Shown: positions 3,827 to 38,217 of the stretch, piece after piece | How positions within the stretch are numbered: the stretch's first letter is position 1 | Layout of the letters: every line of letters starts with the position of its first letter | IMG/VR virus record: IMGVR_UViG_3300020439_002263 | Coordinates: 1 to 57,981 of that record | From: a virus | Direction: 5' to 3' (one strand) | Length of the DNA: 57,981 nt | The notes under the pieces: generated by a model | What the model was told of the DNA's origin: nothing | The model's input: the letters and a program-made list of their open reading frames with translations, nothing else | The model's database searches: none | Position numbers and translations under genes: made by a program

Positions 3827-3853
3827 ACTATCCCACATGTGGGAATATGTCAA
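3827..3853 (-). promoter_or_regulatory. Putative sigma70 early promoter with embedded operator
   Basis: Read leftward, a perfect TTGACA (3853-3848) is followed after 15 nt by GATAGT (3832-3827), preceded by TGG as in an extended -10. The spacer contains the perfect 14-bp palindrome TCCCACATGTGGGA, so a protein bound there would block RNA polymerase. It would drive the early block starting at 3564. Confidence 0.6.
3831..3844. promoter_or_regulatory. Operator-like palindrome O1
   Basis: TCCCACATGTGGGA is a perfect 14-bp palindrome between the -35 and -10 elements of the early promoter. Related sites occur at 35650-35663 and 38204-38217. A partial copy, TCCCTCTAGTGATA, lies at 3955-3968, and a half-site like TTCCACATG at 3921-3929. 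Confidence 0.65.
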
Positions 3854-4530
3854 CATGAAAAATAAAATTTTTAATTTTTTTTTTTTTAATCCATTATAAA
3901 CAAATAAATAGAATAAACATTTCCACATGATAATCTCTCTTTAAATGTATAAATTCCCTCTAGTGATACATTCTCAACGAAAAAAAAAAAACAGATAGAC
4001 AGAACCACATACACATAAAAATAAGACTGTGTTTTATAAAGCCTTGTCTAATGTTAGATTTAGATATTTAATTAGAAGAAAACGTTGATTTCCTGCTGAT
4101 TTCCGTGTATTGTGTGTCAGAAAGTGTGATATTTCTATTAATAAACTGTCTGACAAGAGCACAAGCATGGCCTATGGGGGGATTTTTGACCTCAATCACT
4201 TATCATGCCCCTTCAGATTTTTTTACCAAAAAATTCGGGCACCTAGAATAACCAAGATGTAGTTTTCTTGATGACTACGCTTGAGTAGTAGATCAGTGAT
4301 CGCTGGTAGAATAGACCAGAAGATCTGCTTACTTATGTTATGTTATGTTAACTTATCCATAAAGACCGTAAGATGCATAACAATATATACGGATGCCCCA
4401 TGTAGTTCTTAGTGATATTCTTAAAGAAACCACATGAGGCAACGCACAATGAATCATCTTTAGTAAATATCTATATTATAGATGTGTTATTATTATTATT
4501 ATTGTTATATAGGGGACTCTCTTAAAGGAT

Positions 4531-4651
4531 CTTTAGGATGTTCCTGAAGGATAAGCTTAACGATTATCCTTTAGGATGTTCCTAAAGGATAAGCTTAACG
4601 ATTATCCTTTAGGATGTTCCTAAAGGATAAGCTTAACGATTATCCTTTAGG
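4531..4651. repeat. 38-bp tandem repeats with CCTAAAG heptamers
   Basis: Three 38-bp units begin at 4532, 4570 and 4608, with a partial fourth at 4646. The heptamer CCTAAAG occurs at 4581 and 4619 (CCTGAAG at 4543), and its complement CTTTAGG at 4531, 4569, 4607 and 4645. T7 carries arrays of the same heptamer (SRL and SRR) next to its terminal repeats. The array lies just downstream of the terminase gene, where a T7-like genome end belongs. Confidence 0.75.
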
Positions 4652-4691
4652 ATTTATATGTCTATATAATATATCTTTGGAACCCCCCCTC

Positions 4692-4709
4692 TGTAAGGAT
4701 GCACCCTAA
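4692..4709 (-). promoter_or_regulatory. Putative phage RNA polymerase promoter, copy 4
   Basis: TTAGGGTGCATCCTTACA begins at the terminase stop codon and is followed by a G-rich start region (GAGGGGGGG). It is identical to the copy at 27109-27126. Pointing leftward, it would transcribe toward the genome end, as the last T7 promoters do. Confidence 0.7.
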
Positions 4710-6448
4710 TTGATCCAGAAAGAGACGTACTGCTTCCTGTCGCTACCGGGGCGTAGTGTCTTACACCTTTTCATGAATTCCTTGAGCCTCAGTCGCTGAA
4801 GCTTATCTTTATATTCTTCCTCCGTTTTCTGTATATCTCTATTCAAGGCATCCACCCAGTAACCCACAGCTTCCGCTAAAACATCAATCCTGTCGTCATG
4901 CCTGAGACATCCTCTATCCCTTGTGATGTGGGTAAACTGGTAGAAAAGTTTATATTCTCTATCAATGTCCTCTTTATAGTCCTTCTCAATTAAGGACTGA
5001 TCAACGACGAGGCGGTGGCCTTGAACGACGGGCTCTAGTTTATCTAAGATCCTAGCTTCTTTCTGTCCAGTAACCTTATATTCGGTAAGAGTTACCGGAT
5101 AAATACTTTTAAGAACGGGCGAGAAGAGTTGTAGATACATGCCGTCGCCGAAGTTTCCTTCCACATGGACTTCATTCACGGCCTCTTCTTTAGCAATTTG
5201 AGCTAGTTTTCTGAGGGTATCCGAGTCATAACCTCCAGAGAACCCCCCAGCCCTGGTGAGGTATATCATGCCGTTTAGCATTTTCGTTACTGCAAAGGCT
5301 GTTTCGTCACCGCCCCGGCCTGACGGATCTATGAACATTACCGCACCTTGATACTTATCGAAGTGCTCCTTTGAGATATACATAGGGCGGTGGTAACGGT
5401 CGCCGTCGAAGCCCAAGTTAGGTAATTCAGAGATTTCTTGATCCTTACCTGACGCCCACGTCACCTTTACAGGCGCCATTTCTTTATCAAGGGACATAAC
5501 GATAAGGTCTTTGAGTTTGAGAGGATACTTCTCCGCATCGCTTAGACGTGTGTCCAGCATGTACTGTAACATGAACCCCGACGCTTTATACTCCGCCTCT
5601 CGTTCGATCAGATCTAGGTCATTAAACCGAGCCGGGTCAGTCGGAGCGCCCCCTAGCGCTGAGCCTACGGGCTTGGTCAAATCTGGGTTATTTTTGATAT
5701 CGTCCTTTAGTAGGGGCGCTAAGTAGGGACCATAGTTAACTAAGGTCTCTTCAGTTGGGTACCTCGCCGGCCAGATCCGTATATCATACCCTTTGTCGGG
5801 TAAGTGTCTGTAGATACTCTCTTGAGATTGGGGGGTACCTAGATAGATAACTTCACCACTGCGGCCGTTCTTTTCAGCGGGTTTAACGATAGCCGCGAAC
5901 TCTTTAGTGCGGTCTTCTAGCTTCTCCCTCATCGCCTCTGTTTCCGAGTTCTTAGGGACTTCGACATCATCCGCTATTAAAAGATAGGCGCGGGCTCCTG
6001 TTATCTGTCCAAAAATACCGTCACAACGGACCGACGGCGCTATGTTAGGACCGGCAGGACCAACGTCAAAACTTAACACACTGTCGCGTCTTCCGCCCCG
6101 TAATGGGGATAATAAATCTACTGTCTCGATTAGCTGCTTAATAAACATGGCATTTTCGGCAGCTTTTTTCTCGTTCGCAGACACGATTAGAATGAGTAGG
6201 TGAGGATCACGCCAGAGGCGCCAACACACATAAGCACAGGTAATCCATGATTTACCTACACCACGGAATGCCTGAATCATACGCTTTCTAGGACCGTTTT
6301 GTAGGTAATCAGCGATATCGTACTGAATACGCGTAGGTCGCGGTAAGGACAGACACTTTGTCCATAGGTACCATAAGAACGCTGCGAACGAATTATACAT
6401 CACCTTATCAGACTTGGTGACGATCCATTCAGGTATGTTATTCTTCAT
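4706..6448 (-). CDS. terL: Terminase large subunit (T7 gp19-like)
   Basis: This 580-residue protein matches the usual T7 gp19 length. The ATPase domain has a Walker A motif at about 62-67 (RGVGKSW) and a Walker B segment near 155 (YLLIADDVEV). The C-terminal nuclease domain has IDPSGRGGDETAF and later DDRIDVLAEAV, which supply the acidic metal ligands. It pumps concatemeric DNA into proheads and cuts it at the ends. It follows the small subunit after a 105-nt spacer with a 10-bp inverted repeat. The phage promoter repeat overlaps its stop codon. Confidence 0.95.
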   Translation of the reverse strand: MKNNIPEWIVTKSDKVMYNSFAAFLWYLWTKCLSLPRPTRIQYDIADYLQNGPRKRMIQAFRGVGKSWITCAYVCWRLWRDPHLLILIVSANEKKAAENAMFIKQLIETVDLLSPLRGGRRDSVLSFDVGPAGPNIAPSVRCDGIFGQITGARAYLLIADDVEVPKNSETEAMREKLEDRTKEFAAIVKPAEKNGRSGEVIYLGTPQSQESIYRHLPDKGYDIRIWPARYPTEETLVNYGPYLAPLLKDDIKNNPDLTKPVGSALGGAPTDPARFNDLDLIEREAEYKASGFMLQYMLDTRLSDAEKYPLKLKDLIVMSLDKEMAPVKVTWASGKDQEISELPNLGFDGDRYHRPMYISKEHFDKYQGAVMFIDPSGRGGDETAFAVTKMLNGMIYLTRAGGFSGGYDSDTLRKLAQIAKEEAVNEVHVEGNFGDGMYLQLFSPVLKSIYPVTLTEYKVTGQKEARILDKLEPVVQGHRLVVDQSLIEKDYKEDIDREYKLFYQFTHITRDRGCLRHDDRIDVLAEAVGYWVDALNRDIQKTEEEYKDKLQRLRLKEFMKRCKTLRPGSDRKQYVSFWIN

Positions 6449-6481
6449 GTTTTGGTGTATAGGGTTTAAAGGCGATATAAG

Positions 6482-6552
6482 GCTCGTACAGCTTATGTAA
6501 GGTGTTTTTCTATGTAATATAGTCTGACTTAATTTTACCCCACTGTACGAGC
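6482..6552 (-). other. Inverted repeat between the terminase genes
   Basis: GCTCGTACAG (6482-6491) and its exact complement (6543-6552) enclose 51 nt. In the leftward mRNA this could fold into a stem with a large loop. T7 has RNase III processing sites in the corresponding late region (R18.5), so a processing signal is plausible. No U-run follows it. Confidence 0.4.
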
Positions 6553-6553
6553 T

Positions 6554-6838
6554 TTAAAACGGCTTGGAGAATGGAAAATGAGTGACATTATTACTATTGA
6601 ATTCCTCTTCTAACTCATCGGCCAGAAGGTCTTCAGGATCGCCCGGTTTTACCGCTCGATCTATGCCGTTATCCTTCAAGAACTTAATAGCCTGAGCAAT
6701 GAGCGATGCGGGTATAGGCTGAGGGTTCCCCTTATCGTCAAGTACCTCCCCGTTCCTATACCGCTTGATTTCATCGAGAAGAGTACAAGCCACGGTCCCG
6801 TGTAAGGCGTCTAGAAGATCGTCTGTAGCTCTACTCAT
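6554..6838 (-). CDS. terS: Terminase small subunit (T7 gp18-like)
   Basis: This 94-residue protein (MSRATDDLLDALHGTVACT...) is close to T7 gp18 in length and immediately precedes the large subunit. The segment IPASLIAQAIKFLKDNGID resembles the helical DNA-recognition part of small terminases, and the C-terminus is acidic. It should recognise concatemer DNA and load the large subunit. Its ATG overlaps the end of the preceding membrane-protein gene (ATGAGTAG), showing translational coupling. Confidence 0.85.
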   Translation of the reverse strand: MSRATDDLLDALHGTVACTLLDEIKRYRNGEVLDDKGNPQPIPASLIAQAIKFLKDNGIDRAVKPGDPEDLLADELEEEFNSNNVTHFPFSKPF

Positions 6839-7073
6839 TTAGTTGTCTCTCCATGCGGTCGTTTAGTACGGCTAGATGCTTATTCGCTTCGTTCAGTTCT
6901 GTGGTGAAATCTTCCAGCGTCTCTTTAAGTTCGTCTAGTTGTTCTAACTTCACGTCTTGTCTGACGTTATCCATTTTATTAGAAATCACTGTACTTCCTC
7001 CGCCCAGTAGCGCAGCCATAGCGACAGCATAGGCGGCCTTAGCAAGCCAAGGATGTTGATCTGATAAAGCCAT
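6831..7073 (-). CDS. Small membrane protein with coiled coil (lysis candidate)
   Basis: This is an 80-residue protein. Residues 9-30 form one hydrophobic segment (AKAAYAVAMAALLGGGSTVI). The rest is a charged coiled coil rich in Leu, Glu and Asp, ending LNDRMERQLNE. One N-terminal membrane helix with a long helical tail suits an inner-membrane spanin or a small holin accessory. In T7 the holin (17.5) and Rz-like spanin (18.5) flank the small terminase gene, and this gene lies next to terS. I cannot decide between holin and spanin. Confidence 0.6.
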   Translation of the reverse strand: MALSDQHPWLAKAAYAVAMAALLGGGSTVISNKMDNVRQDVKLEQLDELKETLEDFTTELNEANKHLAVLNDRMERQLNE

Positions 7074-7089
7074 GCGTTAAGCCTGTTCT

Positions 7090-7110
7090 AGAGGGGGAGA
7101 GGCCCCCTCT
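7090..7110. other. Perfect hairpin between two small membrane-protein genes
   Basis: An 8-bp stem (AGAGGGGG with CCCCCTCT) encloses a 5-nt loop. Neither strand has a clear T-run after it, so it is more likely an mRNA stability or processing element than a full terminator. Confidence 0.4.
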
Positions 7111-7114
7111 GTTA

Positions 7115-7261
7115 TTAATATCGCTTCAAGTTACGGTCTTTAAAAGTGCGGGAACCGCGGACTCTGTTCGTCCCGCCTTTCCCCACTTTAGAGCGTCGGA
7201 AGAGGCTCACACCGAAGGCGATAGCGAACAGGCAAAACACGATGCCTAGGAAATAAACCAT
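7115..7261 (-). CDS. 48-residue single-span membrane protein
   Basis: The ATG at 7261 follows a strong AAGGAGAG. The product has a hydrophobic N-terminus (MVYFLGIVFCLFAIAFGVSL), then a strongly basic tail with RRSKVGKGG, RVRGSR and ending KRY. A single helix plus a basic cytoplasmic tail resembles T7-type holin 17.5, or a small pinholin-like protein, and the position after the fibre genes suits that. A separate three-span holin candidate lies at 27.9-28.3 kb, so the roles are uncertain. Confidence 0.65.
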   Translation of the reverse strand: MVYFLGIVFCLFAIAFGVSLFRRSKVGKGGTNRVRGSRTFKDRNLKRY

Positions 7262-7272
7262 AAAACTCTCCT

Positions 7273-7671
7273 TTATTGTAGTGTAGTTACGTTCAGTAGA
7301 ACGGTTACTGTCTTAGAGATCCCGTTGTAACTAGCTGTAACTAGATACTGAGCGTCTGCGTCCTGACCATTAAATGACAGAGTGATATATGTAGACGTAC
7401 CTGAAGCAGGACCTGTGACACACGTCGTTCCTTGTACCTTCTGAAAAGTCCATAAGACACTCTTGTCTGCGTAAATGTTCACACGGGCGTCTGAGTTTAC
7501 GGAATACTGAACGCCGTTTGGTGGGTCCATCCAGACCGTCAGGGGCGCATGTACAAGCTTCCAAACCCCACCGTCCCTGACGTATACTTCCGGCTGCTTC
7601 CAAACCCCACCGTCCCTGACGTAGACCTCGGGGATCTTCCATGTCCCACCGTCTCTCACATAGAATGACAT
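7273..7671 (-). CDS. Fibre-associated protein with YVRDGG repeats
   Basis: I chose the ATG at 7671, after AAGGTG. The 132-residue product opens with three tandem copies of a 13-residue unit, YVRDGG(T/V)WK followed by P-E-V or similar. A Pro-rich linker and a beta-rich domain then end in ITLSFNGQD...YLVTASYNGISKTVTV, an immunoglobulin-like (Big-type) pattern. Such domains occur in phage surface and adhesion proteins. It begins 3 nt after the fibre stop, so it may cap or decorate the fibre. The family is not known to me. Confidence 0.6.
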   Translation of the reverse strand: MSFYVRDGGTWKIPEVYVRDGGVWKQPEVYVRDGGVWKLVHAPLTVWMDPPNGVQYSVNSDARVNIYADKSVLWTFQKVQGTTCVTGPASGTSTYITLSFNGQDADAQYLVTASYNGISKTVTVLLNVTTLQ

Positions 7672-7673
7672 AG

Positions 7674-10220
7674 TCACACCTTAAGCCAGATGTCCCCATC
7701 TGTCCCTCCTGTCGGTGCGGCGGTGGAGACAGTTACGGCTCCGCCAGTGCGTGATCCAGAATTGTGATAGAGGTACCCTCCCTGCTGATACCTACGAATA
7801 CCACCGCCATCGACAAACAGTGGTTTATTCATATAGAACGCTGGTCGGTCTGTTTGGAAGTGGCACCAAAGAGTGTTTCTAGGTCCAACGTCTACGTACC
7901 CTGAGTTTGTCGTAATGCGGGCTGTATTGTAGTCCCCTTTAGATATAGTACTGTTGGAGTCCCTGAGGCGGAATCCGAACCTAGCATATATATAACCTTC
8001 GCCGGTGATCTGGGCAGCGGCCTCAGAACTATGGTAGAGGTTGTGAAACACCCAACCCCTATTACTGCTATGCATACGGAAGTACATGTTGTAATCCGCA
8101 GATGTGTCTAGAGGTGTAACTGTCACGGGGGTGTAGTCTTTATGGCTCATGTAGATCTTATAATAGTCTGAGCCCCAGAAACGTAGTCCTTTACCGTGAC
8201 CGTCTGCTATACTGAAGCCACCCACACTATAAACAGCATCAGGTCCTGTATTACTGACGTAGAAGCGCTTACCACCATAAACGCGAACCCACACAGAGTC
8301 TGCCATGTGGATCCCACCGCCATAGGTCTGGTTATACCATCCTGTCGTCCCAGAAGATCTAAACCAACCGCTACAGCTTATTGAGTCTGCTACTCCGCTA
8401 TCGAACCCGGCAAAGACGCGATCCCCTGAGATAGAACCAACTGTATTCAGGTCCCCTGAAGTATTAATTGTCATAAGAGCGTTAATACTATCAGCGGTTT
8501 GCTTATCATGTTCTACTGTTGCATACCGACATACTGCAAATTTATCGCTACCGGAGTAGGGCCGGCCCCAGAACCATTCATTACCACCGCCAGCGTCATG
8601 AGCGTATGTACCTAACGCCCGTTGGTTTACGGAGTCTTGGGCTTTCAGAACGATAGCCCCATTATGATAGGAAGGACCGTTACCTGTAATTATCAACTCT
8701 GTGGATCCACCTGAGTCTAGCTGTAAATCCGATTTGATATAAGACAGCCCACCGTCGGAACGGAGGTTAACTTTTAGCGCTCCTGCTGAGTCCCTGAGGT
8801 ACATGTTCCAGTTGGAACTTGTTGACCAGAAGCCGGACCAGTTAGATAAACTGGTAGACGATACTCTCACCCCCCACCGATCAGATGATGTATTCACGTC
8901 TACGTTAACTTGACCGGAAAGAGTGCCCCCCGTTACAGGGAGGTAATCATTAGGGTTTAAGTTCCCGGTATGCCAAAGCTTCTCCCAACCTGTCCATGTG
9001 CCGTTATTTTGCGTACGGACATACCACTCGTTTTGCCGCCAATCTCCGGCTAGTTGTGTGGACCATAAACCGTTGTACCGGAGCGTTAGCAAGGACGTGT
9101 CCACGACGCCTATGGGTTTATCGCCGGCAGGAGAGGCCAGATGATGTACTTCAATTCCTGATGAGACCGCCCCTCCAGCACTCTCAAGTCTTCGGTTTAC
9201 TAGATAATCAGTGGAGAGATAATTGTGAGTATGACTCACGTCAGCTTTATTAGAGAGAAAAGCGTCAATCTCCGCTTCGGTATAGTACAGGTCGTTGTGC
9301 GAATGCGTCTTCTGAGCATAAACTGCGTCGTGATCATGAGCGTTGGTGGCGAAATCAGACGGATTAAAGTTCGCAGACGTCCATAAGCGTCCGCCGTTTG
9401 CTTGCCACTCGCCCACGGCTTCATTCCAAAGTAGCGTAGCTAACGGTAGGGTACCCCGGTTGACGTGAATGCCTGCGTTTTCTGTAGGTGTAGAACCGTT
9501 ATAATCAGCGTTCAGTGTAAGAATACTGTCGCCGATGTCGACGACGTTAGAATTTATGAAGTTGATGTCGCCGGTGACTGTAAGGTTGCCAGAGATGCCC
9601 ACATCGCCTGTGATCTGCCCACCAGACTTTGCGAAGTATAACGTAGGGTCAAATGTCTGAGCTAACGCAGCCGAATTAGCTGCGTCTAGTGCCCAGCTCG
9701 CTGCGCTCTGTTCAGCCGCCGCCGCAGCCTGAGCCGACGCCTCAGCATTCTGTTCGCTGGTCGCAGCGGCCGCTGCCGAAGCGGCCGCGTTCTGTCGGTG
9801 CGTCAAAGATGAGGCTGCGTTAGCTTCTGCATTAGTCTGTGCGTTTTCAGCCCCTAACTTTGCCGCCAGCGCCGCGTCACGGTAGCTAGCAGCGTTGTCC
9901 CTATGCTGTAGCGAGAGGGATTCATAAGCGGCAGCCAGAGATTCGCTAGAAGCCGCGTTACTCGCTGCAATTTCTGCCGATTCTTTATAAGAAAAAGCTG
10001 AGGAGACCAGCCCAGAGACGTCCTGCTCAAGCTGGGCAGGGGATTTAGTATACCTGACGTTACCGTTAAAATCGGTCAGTGGGTATTTACCGTCTGACGC
10101 ATCACCTCCGCCGGCAGGCCCTGAGAGCCAAGTTTGAAACTCCGCTTCCCTAGAATTGAAGAACTCGATTAGATCACTTATTTTCTTAGCGAGCTGAGCG
10201 TTGGTGATGTTTATCGTCAT
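7674..10220 (-). CDS. Second tail fibre protein
   Basis: This is an 848-residue protein. Residues 75-200 are an Ala-rich coiled coil with repeated AAAS/NAAS steps, the shaft of a trimeric fibre. Next comes GNLTVTGDINF...SILTLNADYNG, a segment common to T4-type fibres, then YYTEAEIDAFLSNKADVSHTH and LPVTGGTLSGQV, which recur in long tail fibres. The C-terminal half is Gly/Tyr/Trp-rich receptor-binding beta structure. It should determine host attachment together with the T7-type fibre upstream. It has no T7 gp17 N-terminal anchor, so it probably attaches through the 795-residue fibre or the 71-residue protein between them. Confidence 0.85.
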   Translation of the reverse strand: MTINITNAQLAKKISDLIEFFNSREAEFQTWLSGPAGGGDASDGKYPLTDFNGNVRYTKSPAQLEQDVSGLVSSAFSYKESAEIAASNAASSESLAAAYESLSLQHRDNAASYRDAALAAKLGAENAQTNAEANAASSLTHRQNAAASAAAAATSEQNAEASAQAAAAAEQSAASWALDAANSAALAQTFDPTLYFAKSGGQITGDVGISGNLTVTGDINFINSNVVDIGDSILTLNADYNGSTPTENAGIHVNRGTLPLATLLWNEAVGEWQANGGRLWTSANFNPSDFATNAHDHDAVYAQKTHSHNDLYYTEAEIDAFLSNKADVSHTHNYLSTDYLVNRRLESAGGAVSSGIEVHHLASPAGDKPIGVVDTSLLTLRYNGLWSTQLAGDWRQNEWYVRTQNNGTWTGWEKLWHTGNLNPNDYLPVTGGTLSGQVNVDVNTSSDRWGVRVSSTSLSNWSGFWSTSSNWNMYLRDSAGALKVNLRSDGGLSYIKSDLQLDSGGSTELIITGNGPSYHNGAIVLKAQDSVNQRALGTYAHDAGGGNEWFWGRPYSGSDKFAVCRYATVEHDKQTADSINALMTINTSGDLNTVGSISGDRVFAGFDSGVADSISCSGWFRSSGTTGWYNQTYGGGIHMADSVWVRVYGGKRFYVSNTGPDAVYSVGGFSIADGHGKGLRFWGSDYYKIYMSHKDYTPVTVTPLDTSADYNMYFRMHSSNRGWVFHNLYHSSEAAAQITGEGYIYARFGFRLRDSNSTISKGDYNTARITTNSGYVDVGPRNTLWCHFQTDRPAFYMNKPLFVDGGGIRRYQQGGYLYHNSGSRTGGAVTVSTAAPTGGTDGDIWLKV

Positions 10221-10436
10221 CTATTCCTCTTGGATATTTTCGTTCTCAGTTTTGTTAGCAGGATGTGGTGCCGTCTGTGCTAGCGCGATACCAGCCAGAA
10301 TGTTGCGTAGAGCTGTGATTTCTTTATTGACTACTTTTAGGTCAGCTCTAAGTCGCTCCTTCCTGAGCAGTGCTTCGTGTAAAGATTTCTCCAACTGGAC
10401 GGTATGCTGAGAAAGAGGGACACTGTTCTGATCCAT
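10221..10436 (-). CDS. Small helical protein between the fibre genes
   Basis: This 71-residue, mostly helical protein (MDQNSVPLSQHTVQLEKSL...) has heptad-like Leu spacing at residues 12-50 and a Pro/Asn/Glu-rich tail. Its stop abuts the next fibre start. A short coiled-coil protein between two fibre genes could be a chaperone or connector, but that is only positional inference. Confidence 0.5.
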   Translation of the reverse strand: MDQNSVPLSQHTVQLEKSLHEALLRKERLRADLKVVNKEITALRNILAGIALAQTAPHPANKTENENIQEE

Positions 10437-10468
10437 AAGTTTCTCCTATTATTTATGGAGTTTAATCC

Positions 10469-12856: not shown

Positions 12857-12880
12857 ACTTTCTCCGTTAATTTAGGGGAA

Positions 12881-12962
12881 ATTAAGTAACCCGCCGGGGT
12901 GCGCAGTGCGAAACCGAAGCTTCGCCCGAGGCGTGGCGGGTCTTGTTATTCGGTTACTTAAT
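12881..12962. other. Nested inverted repeats between gp16-like and fibre genes
   Basis: The outer arms ATTAAGTAAC (12881-12890) and GTTACTTAAT (12953-12962) pair perfectly over 10 bp. Just inside, CCGCC (12891) can pair with GGCGG (12935), and the interior is GC-rich with smaller palindromes. The mRNA could form a branched structure. This 160-bp gap (12857-13016) has no gene. A processing site or attenuator before the fibre gene is plausible. Confidence 0.5.
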
Positions 12963-12977
12963 AATCTAGATTTATAC

Positions 12978-13005
12978 GAGTGGATACCTAAAATGATATC
13001 CACTC
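12978..13005 (-). other. 9-bp stem-loop after the gp16-like gene
   Basis: GAGTGGATA (12978-12986) pairs perfectly with TATCCACTC (12997-13005) around a 10-nt loop. It lies just after the 1103-codon gene and four TGAA/ATGA tetranucleotide repeats. No U-run follows leftward, so termination is unproven. Confidence 0.4.
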
Positions 13006-13016
13006 CGTTCATTCAT

Positions 13017-27032: not shown

Positions 27033-27108
27033 GGGGTTTATAACCGTAGCCTAGGTAAGATAACCCGTTAATAAAAACCCAGCTACTAACTAGCAGTTTC
27101 GTGAGGGT

Positions 27109-27126
27109 TGTAAGGATGCACCCTAA
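27109..27126 (-). promoter_or_regulatory. Putative phage RNA polymerase promoter, copy 3
   Basis: TTAGGGTGCATCCTTACA begins immediately after the exonuclease stop codon and is identical to the copy at the terminase end. It would start the structural (class III) transcripts, a place where T7 has strong late promoters. Confidence 0.75.
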
Positions 27127-27897: not shown

Positions 27898-28304
27898 TTG
27901 CGGCCTCCGCCCAGTTGATTCATCCGCCACTCACCATATGCACGGTAGCCATAAACCGCAGCAATCATAACGGCTATCGCTGCCTGATACCAAACCGGAG
28001 TCTGCTCCAGGATCTGAAAGCCCCGCAGTATGTAATCGCTCAATCCGGGGATAAAACAGCCTATCATAGGAATTGAGAGTACAAGAGTCATATACTCATC
28101 TTTCCATCCGTTATTATTAAGAGCGTGTTGCTCCCACTTAGCTTCCTCAATTTTCCCCTGCTGAATTAAGTCCATAGCTCGGTTAAATCTAGCCTCCTCT
28201 AGTTTGTCCGCACGCTCTTTCTCCTTAGCTTTTTGTTCTTGTCTTTTTAGAAAATATTGTGGAACATAGCCTATAATACTACGAACAAGACTCAACCATC
28301 CCAT
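27894..28304 (-). CDS. Holin-like membrane protein (GTA three-span type)
   Basis: This 136-residue protein starts at an ATG 6 nt after AGGAG. The N-terminal half is a charged helix (KRQEQKAKEKERADKLEEAR). The motif WKDEYMTLVLSIPMIGCF and the later TPVWYQAAIAVMIAAVYGYR match the three-transmembrane holin family found in gene transfer agents and many phages. It should form the lesion that releases the amidase. Its place between DNA polymerase and exonuclease is unusual, since T7 has its holin near the terminase genes. Confidence 0.7.
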   Translation of the reverse strand: MGWLSLVRSIIGYVPQYFLKRQEQKAKEKERADKLEEARFNRAMDLIQQGKIEEAKWEQHALNNNGWKDEYMTLVLSIPMIGCFIPGLSDYILRGFQILEQTPVWYQAAIAVMIAAVYGYRAYGEWRMNQLGGGRK

Positions 28305-30691: not shown

Positions 30692-30728
30692 AACGTTTCT
30701 CCTATAAGAAAGCCGCCGTGAGGCGGCC

Positions 30729-31286
30729 TCAAGCTGCGCGTGTCTCACCCACGCCCAGTAAACGGGAGCTAGTAGCTAGAAACTCCTCTAAACTACCGTT
30801 ATTGTGGATATTAATGTCAACAAGACGATGTGATATTCCCAGCTCACTCACGTGAGCTGATGCGTGCGCCACGCCGATTCTATGGATCTGAACAATCGTA
30901 CCTCCTTTGCTCTTCAGCCACTGCGCCTCGTTAGAGAAGCGTATATCCGGCACAACGATTTTTAAACCGGTCTTATTAATTAGATCTCGGTTAATTCGAT
31001 CTTCAAGTAGTCTGATCCATAGATCCTCACCCACCAAACGACGACCCCATTCAGTACCTAACGTCTGAGCTAGCTGACGTGGGGACACCCCCGTAAGGCG
31101 GTGCTTCGTCTCTTTCCATTTCCTATCTTCCCACATGGCCATGTTCCACCCAAACATGGCGTTAATGGCCTGCTTCAATGGCGTAGAAAGGGTGTATTTA
31201 GTAAATCCATGCTTAGCCACTAAGTAATCCGCGAGCGTGTCTTTACCAGACCCCGCCCGGCCAGTTATCCCAACGAATTTATCCAT
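30729..31286 (-). CDS. Deoxynucleoside monophosphate kinase
   Basis: This 185-residue protein has a P-loop at 9-16 (GRAGSGKDT), then STPLKQAINAMFGWN and a lid-like RKWKETKHRLTGVSPRQLAQ with TEWGRRL, the pattern of phage dNMP kinases (T4 gene 1, T5). It phosphorylates dNMPs from host DNA breakdown to support replication. It lies between primase-helicase and DNA polymerase. Confidence 0.88.
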   Translation of the reverse strand: MDKFVGITGRAGSGKDTLADYLVAKHGFTKYTLSTPLKQAINAMFGWNMAMWEDRKWKETKHRLTGVSPRQLAQTLGTEWGRRLVGEDLWIRLLEDRINRDLINKTGLKIVVPDIRFSNEAQWLKSKGGTIVQIHRIGVAHASAHVSELGISHRLVDINIHNNGSLEEFLATSSRLLGVGETRAA

Positions 31287-31297
31287 GCTATATCACC

Positions 31298-32962
31298 TTA
31301 ATATTCTAAGATACTATCGCTTCCCATGGGATGCTTACCTTTGGACACCGCGCTAAATGAACCGTCTGGAAGTAGTCTACCAGTACCACGATCGTAGACT
31401 AAGCGGTCTGCCAATCCTAAGTCGCCGAACATCCTATTCTTAAGAACCCTGGCTCTGCTTATATCGCACTCGTCTTCGTCTTGCTGATCACGCTCTAGGG
31501 CAATTATTGTGTCACTCAGTTGTTCGAGGGCTGCCGATCCCCGTAAGTCGCTGAGAGACACCTGTCCCCCCTCATTAAACGACTTTTTATTGTTTGGCCT
31601 CTTTAAGTGAACGATCGCAATTACACCTACGCCTGTACGCTCAATGAACGAGCGCAGTCTAGTCATTAAACGGTCGATATCTTTACGCTCTCCCTCCCCA
31701 GTACCTTCTTGATCAGCTACAACCATTGAGATATGGTCAAGGATAATAAAATCACACCTTTGACCTATCGCCATATAATTAAGCTTAGACACAAGTGTAT
31801 CGGACTCTAACGAGCCGAAGTGGTCATAAAAAAATACCCGCCCAGATAGTTTATCTATCGTCTCCCTGTACTGATCCGCCGTAAGCTTCTTAGGGTTAAT
31901 CATCAGTTCGCCCAGCGGTACTGCATGATCAATAGCTACATATCCGCGAGCGGTCTTCTGCACCGACTCTTCCAAATAGACATTTCCTACGTTAAGACCA
32001 TGAACAGCCGTTAGGTGATACCCCAGCTCCCTAGCCATCGTGGATTTCCCAATACCAGAACCTGCTGTTAAGAGAAGAAGTTCCCTCTTCCGTATCCCCC
32101 TAGTCTTTTCATTTATAACCGGGTAGGGAGTGGGATACCCCTGATCACCTTCATCCATCAGGTAATCAACACTAATTTCATCCAACGCCACTATACCGTC
32201 TGGACGATACTCTTTAGCCTCCCAGAGCGCGTTTATGAGCTCTTTAGCGAGTCCCTGTAACAAACATTCATTAGGGTCCTTCTCCGGTAAATAAGCGATA
32301 TAACCCTTCCCCGGCGAGAGAAGAGAGGCGCACTCTCTAGCTGCCGCAGCTCCCGGTTCATCCATATCAAATGCAAAGATAACTCGGTCAAACCGCTCTA
32401 CCCATTCTATCTCTTTAGCAATCGCCTTGGCTGCGGCCTGAGCGCCGTTCGGCACTGAGACCACTGGCCATTTATTACCCTGCAATTGCGACACGGTCAA
32501 AGCGTCTATCTCGCCTTCAGTAATGACTAGACGTTTACCTCCATTCCCCCAGAGATGTTGGCCGAACAAGCCTACCTCTTTGGGCTGCCCCAAAAACTTA
32601 AACCTTTTACCGGGAAATCTAAGCTTCTGAGCTATCACACCGGAGTCTTTCCTGTAATTAGCTATTTGGACAGGCTTACCCTCATACTTACCTACTTGAT
32701 AGCCAAAAAGGCGACATGTTTCCTCCGAAATACCGCGCTTAGCGAGGGAGCGGTATTCGCCGTCCACGATTAACCTCTTACCCATCTTCCCGCTGTGGCG
32801 AGTTTTAGTCCGACCGCCATCTAAACTGTTAATATGATAGCCGCAAGCAAAACAGTGAGCATGGCCGTCGCTGTAGACGACCAGATTATCCCCACTGCTA
32901 TCGCCACCCTTTGATGCACACTCAGGACATTGCTCCTTCCAACTAACGACTGAATCAATCAT
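31298..32962 (-). CDS. Primase-helicase (T7 gp4-like)
   Basis: This 554-residue protein is close to the 566 of T7 gp4A. A zinc-binding domain begins CPECASKGG with a second pair HCFACG near 35-40. The TOPRIM primase core has VITEGEIDALTVSQL and FAFDMDEPG. The RecA-like helicase domain has Walker A TAGSGIGKSTMA and the IILDHISMVV segment. The acidic tail (...SILEY) suits polymerase contact. The ATG overlaps the stop of the basic micro-ORF (ATGA). Confidence 0.95.
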   Translation of the reverse strand: MIDSVVSWKEQCPECASKGGDSSGDNLVVYSDGHAHCFACGYHINSLDGGRTKTRHSGKMGKRLIVDGEYRSLAKRGISEETCRLFGYQVGKYEGKPVQIANYRKDSGVIAQKLRFPGKRFKFLGQPKEVGLFGQHLWGNGGKRLVITEGEIDALTVSQLQGNKWPVVSVPNGAQAAAKAIAKEIEWVERFDRVIFAFDMDEPGAAAARECASLLSPGKGYIAYLPEKDPNECLLQGLAKELINALWEAKEYRPDGIVALDEISVDYLMDEGDQGYPTPYPVINEKTRGIRKRELLLLTAGSGIGKSTMARELGYHLTAVHGLNVGNVYLEESVQKTARGYVAIDHAVPLGELMINPKKLTADQYRETIDKLSGRVFFYDHFGSLESDTLVSKLNYMAIGQRCDFIILDHISMVVADQEGTGEGERKDIDRLMTRLRSFIERTGVGVIAIVHLKRPNNKKSFNEGGQVSLSDLRGSAALEQLSDTIIALERDQQDEDECDISRARVLKNRMFGDLGLADRLVYDRGTGRLLPDGSFSAVSKGKHPMGSDSILEY

Positions 32963-33117
32963 TTTCTACTAACGCCCTTTGATAATCTACGCCCCCTGAG
33001 AACAGTCCAAGCAGGTTCCTTAACAATACCTAAACCCTTCCTAGGTTTAAAACCTACCGCCTCGAATGCTAATCGCAACGCCGTAGGACGCCGCAAAATG
33101 TATTTACGCTGTGCCAT
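32959..33117 (-). CDS. 52-residue basic protein
   Basis: The ATG lies right after the HTH gene stop, with GAGAGGG 8 nt upstream, and the stop overlaps the primase start. The product begins MAQRKYILRRPTALRLAFEA and contains about a quarter Lys/Arg. Tight coupling on both sides supports a real gene. It may bind nucleic acid. No family is recognised. Confidence 0.6.
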   Translation of the reverse strand: MAQRKYILRRPTALRLAFEAVGFKPRKGLGIVKEPAWTVLRGRRLSKGVSRK

Positions 33118-33118
33118 G

Positions 33119-33331
33119 TCAACAACCCTCTCCCTCGAATGCCAACGAGTATCTAGCGTAGCGCTGACCTAGCAAGTCGCGTTTTAGTACCCGCTGTATC
33201 TTATGTCCTTCCTGTCGTAGAACAGAGATACGTTTCGGAAGATCACGAATTCTATATAAATCTTCTGCTTCCCTCCCGGATAGGCTACCAACCTCTTTGA
33301 GATGTCTTAATACAATCTCTTCCTGTCTCAT
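33119..33331 (-). CDS. Small winged-helix protein (HTH_39-like)
   Basis: I chose the ATG at 33331, 6 nt after AAGGAG. The 70-residue product is one compact domain: EIVLRHLKEVGSLSGREAED, then RIRDLPKRISVLRQEGHKIQ and a wing. This matches small phage helix-turn-helix proteins that often sit in replication modules. Its DNA target and role are unknown; a T7 gene 2-like host-directed role is only speculation. Confidence 0.75.
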   Translation of the reverse strand: MRQEEIVLRHLKEVGSLSGREAEDLYRIRDLPKRISVLRQEGHKIQRVLKRDLLGQRYARYSLAFEGEGC

Positions 33332-33351
33332 ACACAACTCCTTAGCGAAGA

Positions 33352-33786
33352 TTAACTGTTAGACTTCCACCATTCCCTAACGTCAAAGGACGGACATGCT
33401 TTATAAACATGTGGAAGATCCCTATGACCCAGTACTTCTGCATCCGGGTAAGATGCCTTCAAACCTCTAAGTAAACTCTTAAGAGAACTAAACTGAGCTT
33501 CTGTGAAATTATTCTCGGCTGTTTTACCGTCTCCAGCGACACCGCCTACGAGACATACACCTAAAGAGATATGGTTAAACCCCCGGGCGTGTGCTCCGGG
33601 CCTGTCAATAGAACGGCCAGCTTCTACAGTCCCATCACGGCGGATCACAAAATGATACCCAATATCGAACCACCCACGGTTCCTGTGCCATTTCCTGATT
33701 TCAGCAGCTCCAATATCCTGACTGGATCTGGTAGCCGAGCAGTGGACCACAAGATATTCCACCGAGCGAATTGTTTTATGCTTCAT
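33352..33786 (-). CDS. N-acetylmuramoyl-L-alanine amidase (T7 lysozyme, gp3.5-like)
   Basis: This 144-residue protein is slightly shorter than T7 lysozyme (151). Zinc ligands are visible as His15 in YLVVHCSAT, His in LGHRDLPHV and Cys in ACPSFDV; DIGYHFVIRRDGTVE is the amidase_2 core. It cleaves the amide bond in peptidoglycan at lysis. In T7 the same protein also binds the phage RNA polymerase and damps transcription. The ATG overlaps the end of the RusA-like gene. Confidence 0.95.
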   Translation of the reverse strand: MKHKTIRSVEYLVVHCSATRSSQDIGAAEIRKWHRNRGWFDIGYHFVIRRDGTVEAGRSIDRPGAHARGFNHISLGVCLVGGVAGDGKTAENNFTEAQFSSLKSLLRGLKASYPDAEVLGHRDLPHVYKACPSFDVREWWKSNS

Positions 33787-34207
33787 ACTCTCCTATTTCT
33801 ATATCAACACGAGGCGCTTCTTCGGGACAGACGAAGCGCTTCTCCCAGCAGGCTTTAACAATCTGGTCGTCATCCTCCCAGTAACCTTTTTTAGTGATCA
33901 CATCATAAACAGCCTTTTCAAAGTTATCGCCATCCCCTCTGGGGTAGGACCGTTTAGTAGTCCTAGGTCGGTGACACACGAAGCTCACACGAACTACAAC
34001 AGGTCCTTGTAAAGGCCCTCTTGTGTTCTGCGGTACAACGTCCTCCGCAACCTGCATCCACTCTTTATAGTTTTTACCGTAGTAAACCCCCCAACGACTA
34101 ACCCGGGGACGCGACGCTGGAACGGGCGGCCATAAAAGGGAGAGAGAGACCTGCCCCCTCTCCCCCCATTCAACCGCACACCCGGGACTAGAAATCGACT
34201 TCGTCAT
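33776..34207 (-). CDS. RusA-type Holliday-junction resolvase
   Basis: I chose the ATG at 34207, which overlaps the SSB stop by 20 nt; a longer frame opens at 34294. The 143-residue product has the RusA pattern: PPVPASRPRVSRWG near the start, then PRGDGDNFEKAVYDVI and a DDDQIVKA segment with the acidic metal ligands. It would resolve branched replication DNA before packaging. T7 and relatives have the unrelated endonuclease I (gp3) here, so this is a functional replacement at the same place. Confidence 0.88.
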   Translation of the reverse strand: MTKSISSPGCAVEWGERGQVSLSLLWPPVPASRPRVSRWGVYYGKNYKEWMQVAEDVVPQNTRGPLQGPVVVRVSFVCHRPRTTKRSYPRGDGDNFEKAVYDVITKKGYWEDDDQIVKACWEKRFVCPEEAPRVDIEIGEYEA

Positions 34208-34877
34208 CTTCGTCCACGTCAGGTTCAGTATCGCATAAGTCTTCTTCGCATACAGGATCCGCTGTATACCCCCCTTCAATAGCCTCGAAGCCATAGGCTT
34301 CCGCTGAAGGACCGCTTCTCCCCGGGCCTTTAAGATCTACTACCTGTACAGCTTGGATCTTAAGCGAAGGACCAAATTCTTTGAGACTTGAATTCTCATA
34401 GAAGTAAATAAAGCCGGCAATTCGTAGCTTAGAACCGCCCCATATATCATCAACCGCAATGGGCTTGTTGTTACTGTCAAACAAAAGAGGCGCCGCCTGC
34501 GGCATACCCTTACTGTCAAACGCCTTCTTGGAAAAGCTCAATAGGATGTTCCCCGTGGGGTTACCCTCGCTGTCTTCCTCTTCTACCCACAGGTCTTTAA
34601 TAGACCAATTCTTGTCGTATTCCCTACGTTTCCTAAGACTCGCTTCTTCATATTTTTGTTTATAAAAATCCTCTAGAAGCAGTTTAATCTCCCCGATGAA
34701 CTCCTCAGCCTCCTCAGCTGGAACAGCTAGTTTAACTTTCCACGCTTTAGTACCCTTGAATTCATCATACTTTACAAGCTTCGGGAATACTGCTGTACCC
34801 AGTGGGCTTATGAAATTAAAGAAAGTCTTGTTTCTAGATTTACGAACCGTGATATACTTATGCTTTTTACCCTTCAT
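34188..34877 (-). CDS. Single-stranded DNA-binding protein (T7 gp2.5-like)
   Basis: This 229-residue protein matches T7 gp2.5 (232). The N-terminal part (FNFISPLGTAVFPKLVKYD) and WKVKLAVPAEEAEEF are the family start of the OB fold, followed by GSKLRIAGFIYFY. The last 15 residues are acidic and end DDEVDF; an acidic tail with terminal Phe is the hallmark of gp2.5 and binds polymerase and helicase. Confidence 0.92.
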   Translation of the reverse strand: MKGKKHKYITVRKSRNKTFFNFISPLGTAVFPKLVKYDEFKGTKAWKVKLAVPAEEAEEFIGEIKLLLEDFYKQKYEEASLRKRREYDKNWSIKDLWVEEEDSEGNPTGNILLSFSKKAFDSKGMPQAAPLLFDSNNKPIAVDDIWGGSKLRIAGFIYFYENSSLKEFGPSLKIQAVQVVDLKGPGRSGPSAEAYGFEAIEGGYTADPVCEEDLCDTEPDVDEDDEVDF

Positions 34878-35266
34878 CTGTCTTCCTCAACAATGGTGTA
34901 AATCAGATCAAGCAATGGACCCGCGAAAGTAGGCAATCCGCGTCCGTCAAAGCCCAGCTTCCCTCGTTCTATATCCGTTCTAATCCTTTTAAAATCAGTC
35001 TTAACAGGGTCCCAGACGTACCTATAGCCATATTTTTTATCTAGAAACCCACGTACTTCGAATAGTCCATCCTCCACACGGAAAAGTACAAAAACTTGAG
35101 CATCGTTGGGATCTCTAGAACAGTAGCCAAATAGAATTTCAACGGAGTCTGGATCTATGAAGTCAGACTCCTCAAACACTTCCATTAATTCATCTACTGT
35201 TACACATTCTCCCATGATCAGAGGCGGACTAACGGTGTCCCCAGTCGATTTAAATCTACCCGTCAT
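34874..35266 (-). CDS. Hypothetical protein after the RNA polymerase gene
   Basis: This 130-residue acidic protein begins MTGRFKSTGDTVSPPLIM, and its ATG is the last of four ATG-bearing 13-bp repeats. Its stop overlaps the SSB start (ATGA). The sequence has alternating beta and helix (VDELMEVFEESDFIDPDSVE, FVLFRVEDGLFEVRGFL), with no known family. T7 has several small host-takeover genes between 1 and 2.5. Confidence 0.6.
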   Translation of the reverse strand: MTGRFKSTGDTVSPPLIMGECVTVDELMEVFEESDFIDPDSVEILFGYCSRDPNDAQVFVLFRVEDGLFEVRGFLDKKYGYRYVWDPVKTDFKRIRTDIERGKLGFDGRGLPTFAGPLLDLIYTIVEEDR

Positions 35267-35312
35267 GTCTACCCTTCATGTCTACCCTTCATGTCTACCC
35301 GTCATGTCTACC
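35255..35312 (-). repeat. Four tandem 13-bp repeats with start-codon motif
   Basis: On the coding strand, GGTAGACATGA(A/C)GG recurs at 13-nt steps (ATG at 35305, 35292, 35279 and 35266). The first copies encode the end of the 90-residue protein; the last provides the start of the 130-residue protein. Slippage expansion, or multiple ribosome landing sites for coupling, are both possible. Confidence 0.7.
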
Positions 35313-35567
35313 TATCTCGTGTTTCGCGTACTCCTTAATAGCTTTAATCGTGGAGCTAAAAGGACCGTCGACATCAGCCGCTGCCCTAGATGCAATCTCA
35401 AGTAAGTGTTTAATGTCAGTCCCTGTCGCTTCACACATACTCAACAACGCTAGCGCTGTTCCCAGGATCTGGTGTTCAGGTTTATCTTGTGTCCTATCAA
35501 TAACCCTGAACGCAGCTCTACGCAGGTCCGCGTTCGTAATGCCTAGCGAAAATCTATACCCGTCCAT
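35295..35567 (-). CDS. Hypothetical protein following RNA polymerase
   Basis: This 90-residue helical protein (MDGYRFSLGITNADLRRAAF...) ends inside the 13-bp repeats. It is the first gene after phage promoter copy 2 and so should be strongly expressed once the phage polymerase is made. I recognise no family. Confidence 0.6.
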   Translation of the reverse strand: MDGYRFSLGITNADLRRAAFRVIDRTQDKPEHQILGTALALLSMCEATGTDIKHLLEIASRAAADVDGPFSSTIKAIKEYAKHEIGRHDG

Positions 35568-35594
35568 GACTCCTCCGATCAGCGTTCTGGTTTC

Positions 35595-35612
35595 TGTAAG
35601 GATGAGTCCTAA
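35595..35612 (-). promoter_or_regulatory. Putative phage RNA polymerase promoter, copy 2
   Basis: TTAGGACTCATCCTTACA differs from copies 3 and 4 at three central positions and is again followed by GA. It lies 28 nt upstream of the 90-residue gene, right after the RNA polymerase gene, as the first class II promoters do in T7. Confidence 0.65.
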
Positions 35613-35649
35613 ACAGAGGGTTATGGATATATAACTCTATGTGTAATTA

Positions 35650-35663
35650 TCCCATAAGTGGGA
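35650..35663. promoter_or_regulatory. Operator-like palindrome O2
   Basis: TCCCATAAGTGGGA has 5-bp perfect arms (TCCCA/TGGGA) and lies just after the RNA polymerase stop, about 40 bp upstream of phage promoter copy 2. It shares the arms of O1 at 3831. Confidence 0.55.
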
Positions 35664-35666
35664 ATA

Positions 35667-38114
35667 TTATGAGAAGAAAAAAACACTCTCCTTAACGCCT
35701 TCGAGGTTTAACGAACCTTTAGGCGGAATCTCAGGAATCTTCTCCGCTGTTTCTGGGGATAACTGAGTCAACAACTCCTTTTTAAAAGACATAAGAATAT
35801 CCTCACTGTACATAGCTATAAACTCCTCTCGCAGAATTGCGTTCATCAGCGGTATATCGCAAGCATGCGTTCCGAATGAATCATGAATCATGGCGAATGA
35901 GGTTATACCGCACCGCGTACATGTGTTGACTGTCCGCATTAAATGCGCTGCGTCCATGCTATGAATAAAGTTAGGCGCAATACCAGAACGCTGAGCGTTT
36001 GCATCTATCTTTTCGGTGTCGCAAGCTAAACTGAGCTGTCGCTTTTTACCCTGAAACCAGACTTTCACGCGTTTTGATGTATATTTCCTCTCATCTTGTA
36101 ATACGGGCATCCCTACAGGGGTTGTCCAGTATAGGGGAACGCCGTCTCTTGCCGTTAAAGTGGCTACTTCCTGTAACCACTCCATCGCACCTGATGCTGC
36201 GATAACTGTCTCCCGAATGCAACGCTCTACGATCGGAGAAAGGTAATTCGCAGCCTCAAAATAACTAAGCCCGTCAAGGTAGTTACCTGAGTCGTCTAGC
36301 TTTTTAAGCGCATCAATTATTTGGTCACGGATCCCCCGGCTAGTTACCGAGTAGGCAAACGTCATACAGGGCTGTTTAACGATTTTACGTACTACTTTAC
36401 CTCGCCACCGCCTTGCTGCCTCATCGGTGGCTCTTTTAATATATTCCTCAACCCTCTTCGCCACCTCACTATAAATATCGTGACATTCATCACTCGGTGT
36501 TAAATTGACCGCAGTACCACCTATCTCATCTCTAAGCATCGCGCTAAAATGTTGAAGCCCGGAGCAAGAACCATCCACCGCCACCGGTATGTGGCACATA
36601 TAGTTGGGATCAAGACCGGATTCTACATACCCACTCCACTCAAAACATGCAGCCAAGGCTGTCCATGCACTGTCCCCTCCATTCGCGCTGGTCCAGAACC
36701 GCTCACCGTCAAGGGGATTCCGAGCTGAGTCCAGTATTAATTCTTCATGATCTAGAGTCCACCGTACCCTCTCAGATAACGGTAGCTTATCCGCTTCACC
36801 AAAACAATTAGCGACGTGGACTGCTAACCAGAAAGCTCCGGCATCACCCAAGGGCTTCCCCCTAGCAAATTCCAAAAGGGATTTTGCTTTATCATCCCCT
36901 TGAGGGTTTAGACCTGTGGGTTGGGCATAAATCCTGCCTCTGAAGTCCATTGTATAAGGGAAATAAATCTCCTCCTCATCTACATAGCGAGATGCCACAA
37001 ACATTTGTTGTGCAAACGCCAGTCGTTTCGAAATCTTCTTCGCGTTGTTTGTATAAACCTCTGCCGCAGCCGCCTTCCATTGCTTAAGTCGCTTCTGCTC
37101 CTCCTTAGATAAAGAGGACAGAGGAACATCTTCAGGTATATCTGAAGGTCTTGGTGGTACAGGATCATCATCATCTATAGGAAGACCGCCTAATGAGCTA
37201 CGCTGATCTCTAAGTGTTTTCATGACGTCATAAACCTTCCGGTTAATTCTCCACGCTGTCCTCTGGATAGCGTTAACCGCGTTGTAAACTTCAGGCATCT
37301 CCACCGAGAATAGCTCATCCAGTGTATCCCGTCGTTTAGTTTTAATTAAATACATACTTTTAAACAGGCCCCGGTTCAGATACCCGCCGTCCTTGGGGTT
37401 CGTCCAATCTCTAGGTTTGAGAATCATAGGCATATAAACAGGGGCGAGTAATGAAGCTTCCTCATGCCTTTTCTCCAACCACTCTTTAACCTTATCAGTG
37501 GGCCGTATGACAGCACGCTTCATTTTCCCTTTAAGATCTAAATGGACAGTAGCTAGCCCTGTTGCTTCGATAAAAAGTTCGACCAGTTTACTACCTACTA
37601 GTAGTTTATCCCTGTTAGTCCAGCCGAGACCCACAGCTTCCGGTACAAGTTTTAGTGCATGTTTCAGGACTCCCTGTCGATATCTAGCATGTGTGGACTT
37701 CTTAATTTTATCTTCGGTATGCCTCAGCAAACCAGGCGCATGTTTGGAGAATTGCACAAATCTGACGTGATCCTCTAATGATGTCCCTATAGAGATAGAG
37801 ACTTTAGTCAACGTCTCGTTCTTAATCATACTGTTGATTACCCAACGTGATGTAACGAAAGCAGCTACATCAGGTATAAAACACTCAAGGTACTGAGCCG
37901 CTGTGTGTCTTCTGCCTGCTTTACCGCTTGAACACTCCTTCACGAATTCCTCGATTTTTGAGGAAAGTTTAGGAACTGAGCGGTGGACTAAAGACTTCCC
38001 GGGAGGTAGCTCAGCTTCTTCACCGCCCTCACGGCTTTTATTATACCGGTCGACTCCTAAACCCACCATTATTTCTTCTAAAAGATGTTCTCTCTGAACT
38101 TTATCCATTTCCAT
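35667..38114 (-). CDS. Single-subunit phage RNA polymerase (T7 gp1-like)
   Basis: I chose the ATG at 38114, 8 nt after AGGAG. The 815-residue product is somewhat shorter than T7 RNAP (883). Catalytic elements are visible: DFRGRIYAQP near 390-400, VAVDGSCSGLQHFSAML with the first catalytic Asp region, KQPCMTFAYSVTSRG with the O-helix Lys and Tyr, and MIHDSFGTHACD with the second catalytic Asp. It transcribes the middle and late genes from its own promoters. Expression in a lysogen would be harmful, so repression of its host-type promoter (38278-38305) is expected. Confidence 0.97.
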   Translation of the reverse strand: MEMDKVQREHLLEEIMVGLGVDRYNKSREGGEEAELPPGKSLVHRSVPKLSSKIEEFVKECSSGKAGRRHTAAQYLECFIPDVAAFVTSRWVINSMIKNETLTKVSISIGTSLEDHVRFVQFSKHAPGLLRHTEDKIKKSTHARYRQGVLKHALKLVPEAVGLGWTNRDKLLVGSKLVELFIEATGLATVHLDLKGKMKRAVIRPTDKVKEWLEKRHEEASLLAPVYMPMILKPRDWTNPKDGGYLNRGLFKSMYLIKTKRRDTLDELFSVEMPEVYNAVNAIQRTAWRINRKVYDVMKTLRDQRSSLGGLPIDDDDPVPPRPSDIPEDVPLSSLSKEEQKRLKQWKAAAAEVYTNNAKKISKRLAFAQQMFVASRYVDEEEIYFPYTMDFRGRIYAQPTGLNPQGDDKAKSLLEFARGKPLGDAGAFWLAVHVANCFGEADKLPLSERVRWTLDHEELILDSARNPLDGERFWTSANGGDSAWTALAACFEWSGYVESGLDPNYMCHIPVAVDGSCSGLQHFSAMLRDEIGGTAVNLTPSDECHDIYSEVAKRVEEYIKRATDEAARRWRGKVVRKIVKQPCMTFAYSVTSRGIRDQIIDALKKLDDSGNYLDGLSYFEAANYLSPIVERCIRETVIAASGAMEWLQEVATLTARDGVPLYWTTPVGMPVLQDERKYTSKRVKVWFQGKKRQLSLACDTEKIDANAQRSGIAPNFIHSMDAAHLMRTVNTCTRCGITSFAMIHDSFGTHACDIPLMNAILREEFIAMYSEDILMSFKKELLTQLSPETAEKIPEIPPKGSLNLEGVKESVFFFS

Positions 38115-38164
38115 ATCCCCGTCTCCTACGTAGGAACTAAAGAAATATCTAAGGGATCCCCCCA

Positions 38165-38182
38165 TGTAAGGACGCACCCTAA
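38165..38182 (-). promoter_or_regulatory. Putative phage RNA polymerase promoter, copy 1
   Basis: TTAGGGTGCGTCCTTACA, one base from copies 3 and 4, is followed by a G-rich start region (TGGGGGGA) and lies about 50 nt upstream of the polymerase start. It would give self-amplifying expression of the polymerase. Confidence 0.65.
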
Positions 38183-38203
38183 CTGCTATTTTTGAAGGGA
38201 CAT

Positions 38204-38217
38204 TCCCACTAGAGGGA
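38204..38217. promoter_or_regulatory. Operator-like palindrome O3 upstream of RNA polymerase
   Basis: TCCCACTAGAGGGA, flanked by extra pairing AT bases, lies between the host-type promoter and phage promoter copy 1. Its complement TCCCTCTAGTG recurs exactly at 3955-3965 near the early promoter. Confidence 0.6.

Follow-up and report, generated by a model that had tools for sequence, protein, structure and literature searches.

T7-like phages are textbook examples of strictly lytic phages, and how their temperate relatives restrain a self-amplifying phage polymerase is an open question. A MarR-based switch has been proposed for Pseudomonas phage LUZ100, whose transcription start sites were mapped by ONT-cappable-seq. 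In this proposal the phage RNA polymerase (RNAP) is repressed in lysogeny, with MarR sites on either side of the promoter that precedes RNAP (PMC10134795). The same paper credits a MarR switch at RNAP to Boeckman et al. (2022, Virology 568:86-100), for phage Pasto. No stable LUZ100 lysogens were obtained and the MarR sites are only postulated. The text, from which the terms 'operator' and 'palindrom' are absent, gives no operator sequence, and it locates repression at RNAP's phage promoter (PMC10134795). The locus described here has the same marR-int-attachment-RNAP order and a homologous MarR-like protein (36-40%). It differs from the LUZ100 proposal in that an explicit operator also lies in the early host promoter and just past RNAP. 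The original prediction knew of no well-described T7-type circuit of this form. None has been demonstrated, but a MarR switch at RNAP was already proposed in print (PMC10134795), so the present operator network is a concrete formulation of a known proposal. Apparently new are an operator with an explicit sequence, its presence in the early promoter, the site just past RNAP and the diversification of the operator. Among open-access papers we found none that names the operator or its early-promoter placement; the subscription paper of Boeckman et al. falls outside that scope and may contain sites.

The stoperators of cluster A mycobacteriophages such as L5 are a second related system (PMC9283540). 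There, as proposed here, one repressor uses sites in early promoters and short intergenic gaps. The L5 repressor is a monomer with two DNA-binding domains and its sites are asymmetric, whereas the present prophage has a MarR-fold protein with a single winged helix-turn-helix (wHTH), a palindromic dyad and its own RNAP. Stoperators are numerous genome-wide in short intergenic gaps, are oriented with transcription and block its elongation; the window has three sites, without such asymmetry and orientation.

The T7-like cyanophages P-SSP7 and S-CBP3 carry a marR-like gp0.7, int and RNAP in the same order as the window, but their next gene starts at the RNAP stop codon, with no room for the site called O2 below. 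In a cyanophage study a repressor homologue was reportedly not found. The T7-like cyanophage S-TIP37 integrates without classic lysogeny (PMC8776855).

The DNA analysed here, referred to as the window, is the whole IMG/VR contig of record IMGVR_UViG_3300020439_002263 (57,981 bases). It contains a T7-like prophage on the minus strand. The integrase and a MarR-like gene lie in its left part, RNAP occupies 35667-38177, and the 3' part of a tRNA probably marks the right attachment end (Table 1). The prophage encodes a single-subunit T7-like RNAP, as do temperate T7-like phages of the Pasto, LUZ100 and HTVC019P kind, and its marR-like gene lies directly ahead of a tyrosine integrase, across the attachment site from RNAP. 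The tRNA fragment is the basis for placing that site; a search of the window for a complete tRNA found none. Past integration is implied by the non-phage genes beside the prophage.

Table 1. Features of the prophage control regions in the window.
Feature	Coordinates	Strand	Remarks
Tyrosine integrase	3..896	-	PF00589, phrog_1; adjoins marR; cut by left end of record
MarR-like putative repressor, 133 aa	883..1284	-	phrog_9665; proposed binder of O1-O3
Candidate early host promoter	3825..3853	-	-35 TTGACA 3853-3848, spacer 17, -10 TAGTAC 3830-3825
O1, candidate operator TCCCACATGTGGGA	3831..3844		exact motif; best matrix score; inside 17-bp early-promoter spacer
Variant phage-type promoter	35595..35611	-	3 mismatches; after RNAP, 38 bp downstream of O2
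O2, candidate operator	35650..35663		exact motif; 4 bases past RNAP stop codon; matrix rank 2
T7-like RNA polymerase ORF	35667..38177	-	PF00940 E=5e-118, phrog_414; likely true start ATG at ~38114
Phage-type promoter TAGGGTGCGTCCTTACA	38165..38181	-	motif; upstream of RNAP, 22 bp downstream of O3
O3, candidate operator	38204..38217		1 mismatch; in RNAP leader; matrix rank 3
Candidate host promoters for RNAP	38268..38305	-	TTGACA 38305-38300; TTTACA-16-AATAAT 38295-38268
tRNA 3' end (Thr-like), probable attachment site end	38385..38441	+	from sequence; inferred

The motif TCCCANNNNTGGGA is exact at O1 and O2; 0.05 exact matches are expected per window, and none of 100 shuffles had two copies. 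O3 alone is within chance (1.69 matches with at most one mismatch expected per window). A weight matrix was made solely from 24 sites in relatives, with the sites of the window excluded. By this matrix O1 (24.9), O2 (22.7) and O3 (16.6) are the top three positions in the 58-kb record, the fourth scoring 12.1, and the third-best score never exceeded 12.5 in 40 simulated windows. Judged on these comparisons of sequence, O1, O2 and O3 are real sites. The original prediction had placed O1 between the TTGACA and the -10 of an early promoter and had O2 and O3 flanking the RNAP gene. Both placements are borne out, the spacer being 17 bp and the -10 weak (TAGTAC, 3/6 matches). It had also listed partial copies at 3921 and 3955 and a half-site near 38307 at the -35 of the polymerase promoter. 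These fell away: the partial copies score far under O1-O3, at or below background, and the half-site is likewise at or below background. The stretch at 3955 has 12 bases in common with O3. Separately, a copy with two mismatches at the marR promoter (1495-1508) was rejected as not above chance, and the marR promoter of the window has no supported operator.

The candidate early promoter reads towards the early genes, marR and int. Scans for host-like promoters around O1-O3 gave no more matches than shuffled sequence, and the number of candidate host promoters found for RNAP is not above chance. O3, in the leader on the downstream side of the candidate host promoters, overlaps no recognisable -35 or -10. 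The phage-type promoter motif has four matches in the window against 0.19 expected. The conserved sequence TAGGGTGCRTCCTTACA is found on the minus strand at the terminase end (4692-4708), in the late region (27109-27125), before RNAP (38165-38181) and after RNAP (35595-35611), and is likely to be the promoter used by the prophage's own RNA polymerase.

Relatives were supplied by alignment scans, single-protein scans of viral contigs (RNAP, MarR) having yielded little; the RNAP alignment scan brought in 160 loci from bacterial genomes and viral contigs. The dyad TCCCA-N4-TGGGA occurs in phages whose RNAP is 36-44% identical, either 4-5 bases past the RNAP stop or upstream of RNAP. With 0-1 mismatch, TCCCANNNNTGGGA lies just past the RNAP stop in several loci (Xanthomonas arboricola L028, L091, L094, Telmatospirillum L043), and upstream of RNAP or at its start in L028, L094 and L161. 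The motif is also present in the early region beyond the terminase and in the marR-int region of such phages (L188, L189, L187, L193 and L191), and sites upstream of marR are present in L193, L061, L029 and L153. The DNA similarity of relatives to the window is confined to short stretches (about 65-78% identity) at 29.2-37.0 kb. None lies in the control regions, so the conservation of the sites is not mere relatedness. The Stenotrophomonas locus L044 (NZ_RAVT01000011.1) has no significant nucleotide similarity to the window over the 20.5 kb compared.

A genome-wide search had been expected to place the motif in prophage control regions. This was the case in two of three relatives' genomes: X. 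arboricola has the motif three times in 5.1 Mb, two copies flanking RNAP and one at the int 3' end beside marR, and Coralloluteibacterium has it twice in 4.0 Mb, both within phage control regions. Telmatospirillum has eight copies in 5.0 Mb, part of them assigned. In the Xanthomonas-type prophages L188 (23-71) and L191 (7011-7059) two operator copies lie at the integrase 3' end, near the expected attachment site. A T7-like phage with a mycobacterial host label, Mycobacterium phage jiawei (L006, OR464703.1; RNAP 40.6% identity), resembles the Proteobacteria-type group in RNAP and gene order despite that label.

In LUZ100 the element ATCCACTAGCGCAT begins 5 bases past RNAP. The LUZ100 host promoters P1 and P2 hold exact arm copies in the arrangement TTGACA-N4-[ATCCACCAGCGCAT]AAGAT, in which the site's final T also serves as the first base of the -10 TAAGAT. 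The element therefore lies inside the 17-bp spacers of mapped early promoters, which is the geometry of O1; P1 and P2 are similar to each other and perhaps not independent. P3, ahead of marR, has a copy with one mismatch, and further copies flank the terminator before RNAP. Exact copies also follow the stop codons of gp14, primase and capsid, and there are at least seven exact copies when those after stop codons are included. The exact copies are asymmetric and all in one orientation, as in stoperator systems, and the LUZ100 element appears to resemble a stoperator network.

No clear common element emerged when known phages were searched for palindromes in general, but one did when the search was anchored at the stop codon of RNAP. 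A 5-N4-5 dyad stands at RNAP stop+4/+5 in many T7-like phages, and its letters have diverged (arms TCCCG, TTCCA, TCTCG, GTACG, GCACG, CTACG and TTTCC). Perfect dyads number 21 among 140 phages, whereas control positions give 1.3. In 17 of 37 genomes the sequence that follows RNAP is found again ahead of that genome's RNAP (at most one mismatch; about 1 expected); taking the upstream region of another genome as a control gives 3.2%. Away from O2 itself, the phages' own O2 sequences have 42 exact copies, while swapped operators give 3.9; for intergenic copies the numbers are 22 and 0.2, and for those directly past stop codons 7 and 0.1. Own-operator sites fall within TTGACA-type spacers in 6 loci (0.86 expected; largest of 200 swaps, 4). 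The operator letters thus change together at separate places, as expected for the sites of a trans-acting DNA-binding protein. Among pelagiphages, HTVC019P, 022P and 121P have a related dyad at RNAP stop+5, and 022P and 121P have a matching site about 36 bases ahead of RNAP.

In Pasto the phage's own O2 has one further copy only, which does not amount to a network. S2B and L047 have a MarR gene and no clear recurrent operator, and in S2B and BB8, where the wHTH is very diverged or was not found, no operator could be established. Column covariation pooled over the 140 phages is blurred by two registers and a possible third half-site. Such a third half-site is seen in L028 (12399-12425) and in L100 after the RNAP stop, at regular spacing behind the O2 dyad. 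The pattern is of the TCCCA-N4-TGGGA-N4-TCCCA type and suggests overlapping operators.

We propose that the phage's own MarR-family repressor (883-1284) uses O1-O3 to silence the early promoter and RNAP and so keeps lysogeny, and we consider this probable. The 133-aa protein models as a MarR winged-helix fold with long terminal helices (AlphaFold2 pLDDT 93.8). Its best Foldseek matches in the PDB are the MarR proteins PcaV, MepR and MarR (E 4e-5 to 1e-3, TM about 0.5-0.6), and the matched MepR and MarR structures include DNA complexes; its Pfam MarR_2 match is below the Pfam cut-off. A MarR-like gene is present within the fetched stretch in 31 of the 140 loci, nearly always directly ahead of int. 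Regulators of the MarR family bind palindromic operators as dimers. Operator similarity tracks MarR similarity given RNAP (0.31, p=0.0003) and given RNAP and integrase (0.22, p=0.01). As predictors of operator similarity, integrase and RNAP do not reach significance, nor does the recognition helix alone in an analysis that includes the remainder of MarR. Helices such as ISQASCSRN and LAQSSVSRN are common to phages with ATCCA/GCA operators (LUZ100, L101, L122 and L123), which is an observation only. Among the candidate regulators named earlier, the 127-residue, MarR-like and 70-residue HTH proteins, support was found only for the MarR-like one.

It is unlikely, though worth weighing, that another regulator, host-encoded or another early phage protein, binds the sites while the MarR-like protein has a different role, for instance in redirecting transcription. 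Redirecting has been suggested for cyanophage P-SSP7, as cited in PMC12753301, and pelagiphage HTVC022P expresses MarR and RNAP at high levels early on (PMC12753301). MarR binding to the sites is predicted, and the correlation between operator and MarR is moderate. The operator letters, however, differ among phages yet recur within each genome, which makes a phage-encoded binder most likely, and the MarR-like protein is the regulator found beside int, with a divergence that tracks the operator. The original claim that one repressor acts at the early promoter and around RNAP is well supported by comparison. The same site is found at the same positions in distant relatives, and the diversified, self-consistent operators, the element in LUZ100 early promoters and the MarR co-variation all point the same way.

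The location directly past the stop codon and the tetraloop-like geometry could also suit a hairpin in the RNAP transcript, with a 5-bp stem and a 4-base loop, that serves its processing or stability, O1 then being a coincidence. This is very improbable, as the same sequence occurs in untranscribed promoter spacers (O1, LUZ100 P1/P2) and upstream of RNAP, and single broken pairs are G-U in 3 of 24, which is no excess. Least probable of all is that the three palindromes are chance or part of phage-polymerase promoters, with no regulatory network: O3 alone is within chance and O2 and O3 are close to phage-type promoters, but the independent matrix ranks the three first, their positions are conserved in relatives, the phage-promoter motif is a separate sequence and the gap after RNAP in L028 cannot hold a promoter.

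The sites, their positions, their conservation and their co-variation with marR can be read from the sequences themselves. From these we infer the steps of repression by the MarR-like protein: repressor binding, repression, roadblock or looping, and induction. At O1 a repressor dimer between the -35 and the -10 would block the host-type early promoter, and this promoter occlusion is the best-supported step of the proposed mechanism. Bound at O3, the repressor would keep host transcription out of the RNAP gene, and it may also interfere with the phage promoter that lies 22 bp downstream. At O2 it could obstruct polymerase on its way out of the RNAP gene, as a roadblock, or take part in DNA looping with O3. 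Neither O2 nor O3 overlaps a clear promoter, which makes their mode of action uncertain. In L028 the gap from RNAP to the next gene is about 43 bases, too short to hold a promoter; the lack of promoter space around O2 in some relatives favours a roadblock or looping over occlusion. Without RNAP the middle and late genes would remain silent, which would constitute lysogeny. Induction might follow from a ligand, an antirepressor or loss of occupancy. Since the 133-aa protein is a single winged-helix domain, too short to include a self-cleaving peptidase domain, classic RecA-stimulated cleavage is not expected to be the route of induction.

More tentatively, and as one joint proposal that we hold with somewhat less than even confidence, the sites may belong to a family-wide immunity system of temperate T7-like phages, with a MarR-fold repressor and fast-diversifying operators. 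The sites would lie in early promoters and, stoperator-like, after the RNAP stop and in some phages after other genes. They would block elongation, possibly that by the phage's own single-subunit polymerase. Phages would fall into immunity groups according to operator type, and losing the site behind RNAP would mark the passage from temperate to lytic T7, as exemplified by cyanophages that integrate without lysogeny.

The operator network suggests how a virus type regarded as always lytic can stay silent in a chromosome. With an operator recognisable from sequence, the switch can be tested directly and immunity groups can be predicted. Such an operator also picks out therapy candidates that look lytic but carry a repression system, and it provides parts for repressible promoters.

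Two further elements of the window were noted. A tandem repeat at 4531-4653 (38-base unit, 3.2 copies, CTTTAGGATGTTCCTAAAGGATAAGCTTAACGATTATC) sits in AT-rich sequence that separates the terminase from the early promoter and is probably close to the ends of the phage genome. Beyond the attachment site on the right, 38574-57981 is a BREX-type defence island adjoining the prophage, with a second integrase (38574-39743), HipA, an IS66 transposase, an ADP-ribosylglycohydrolase, an Mrr-like nuclease, BrxL, PglZ and GmrSD.
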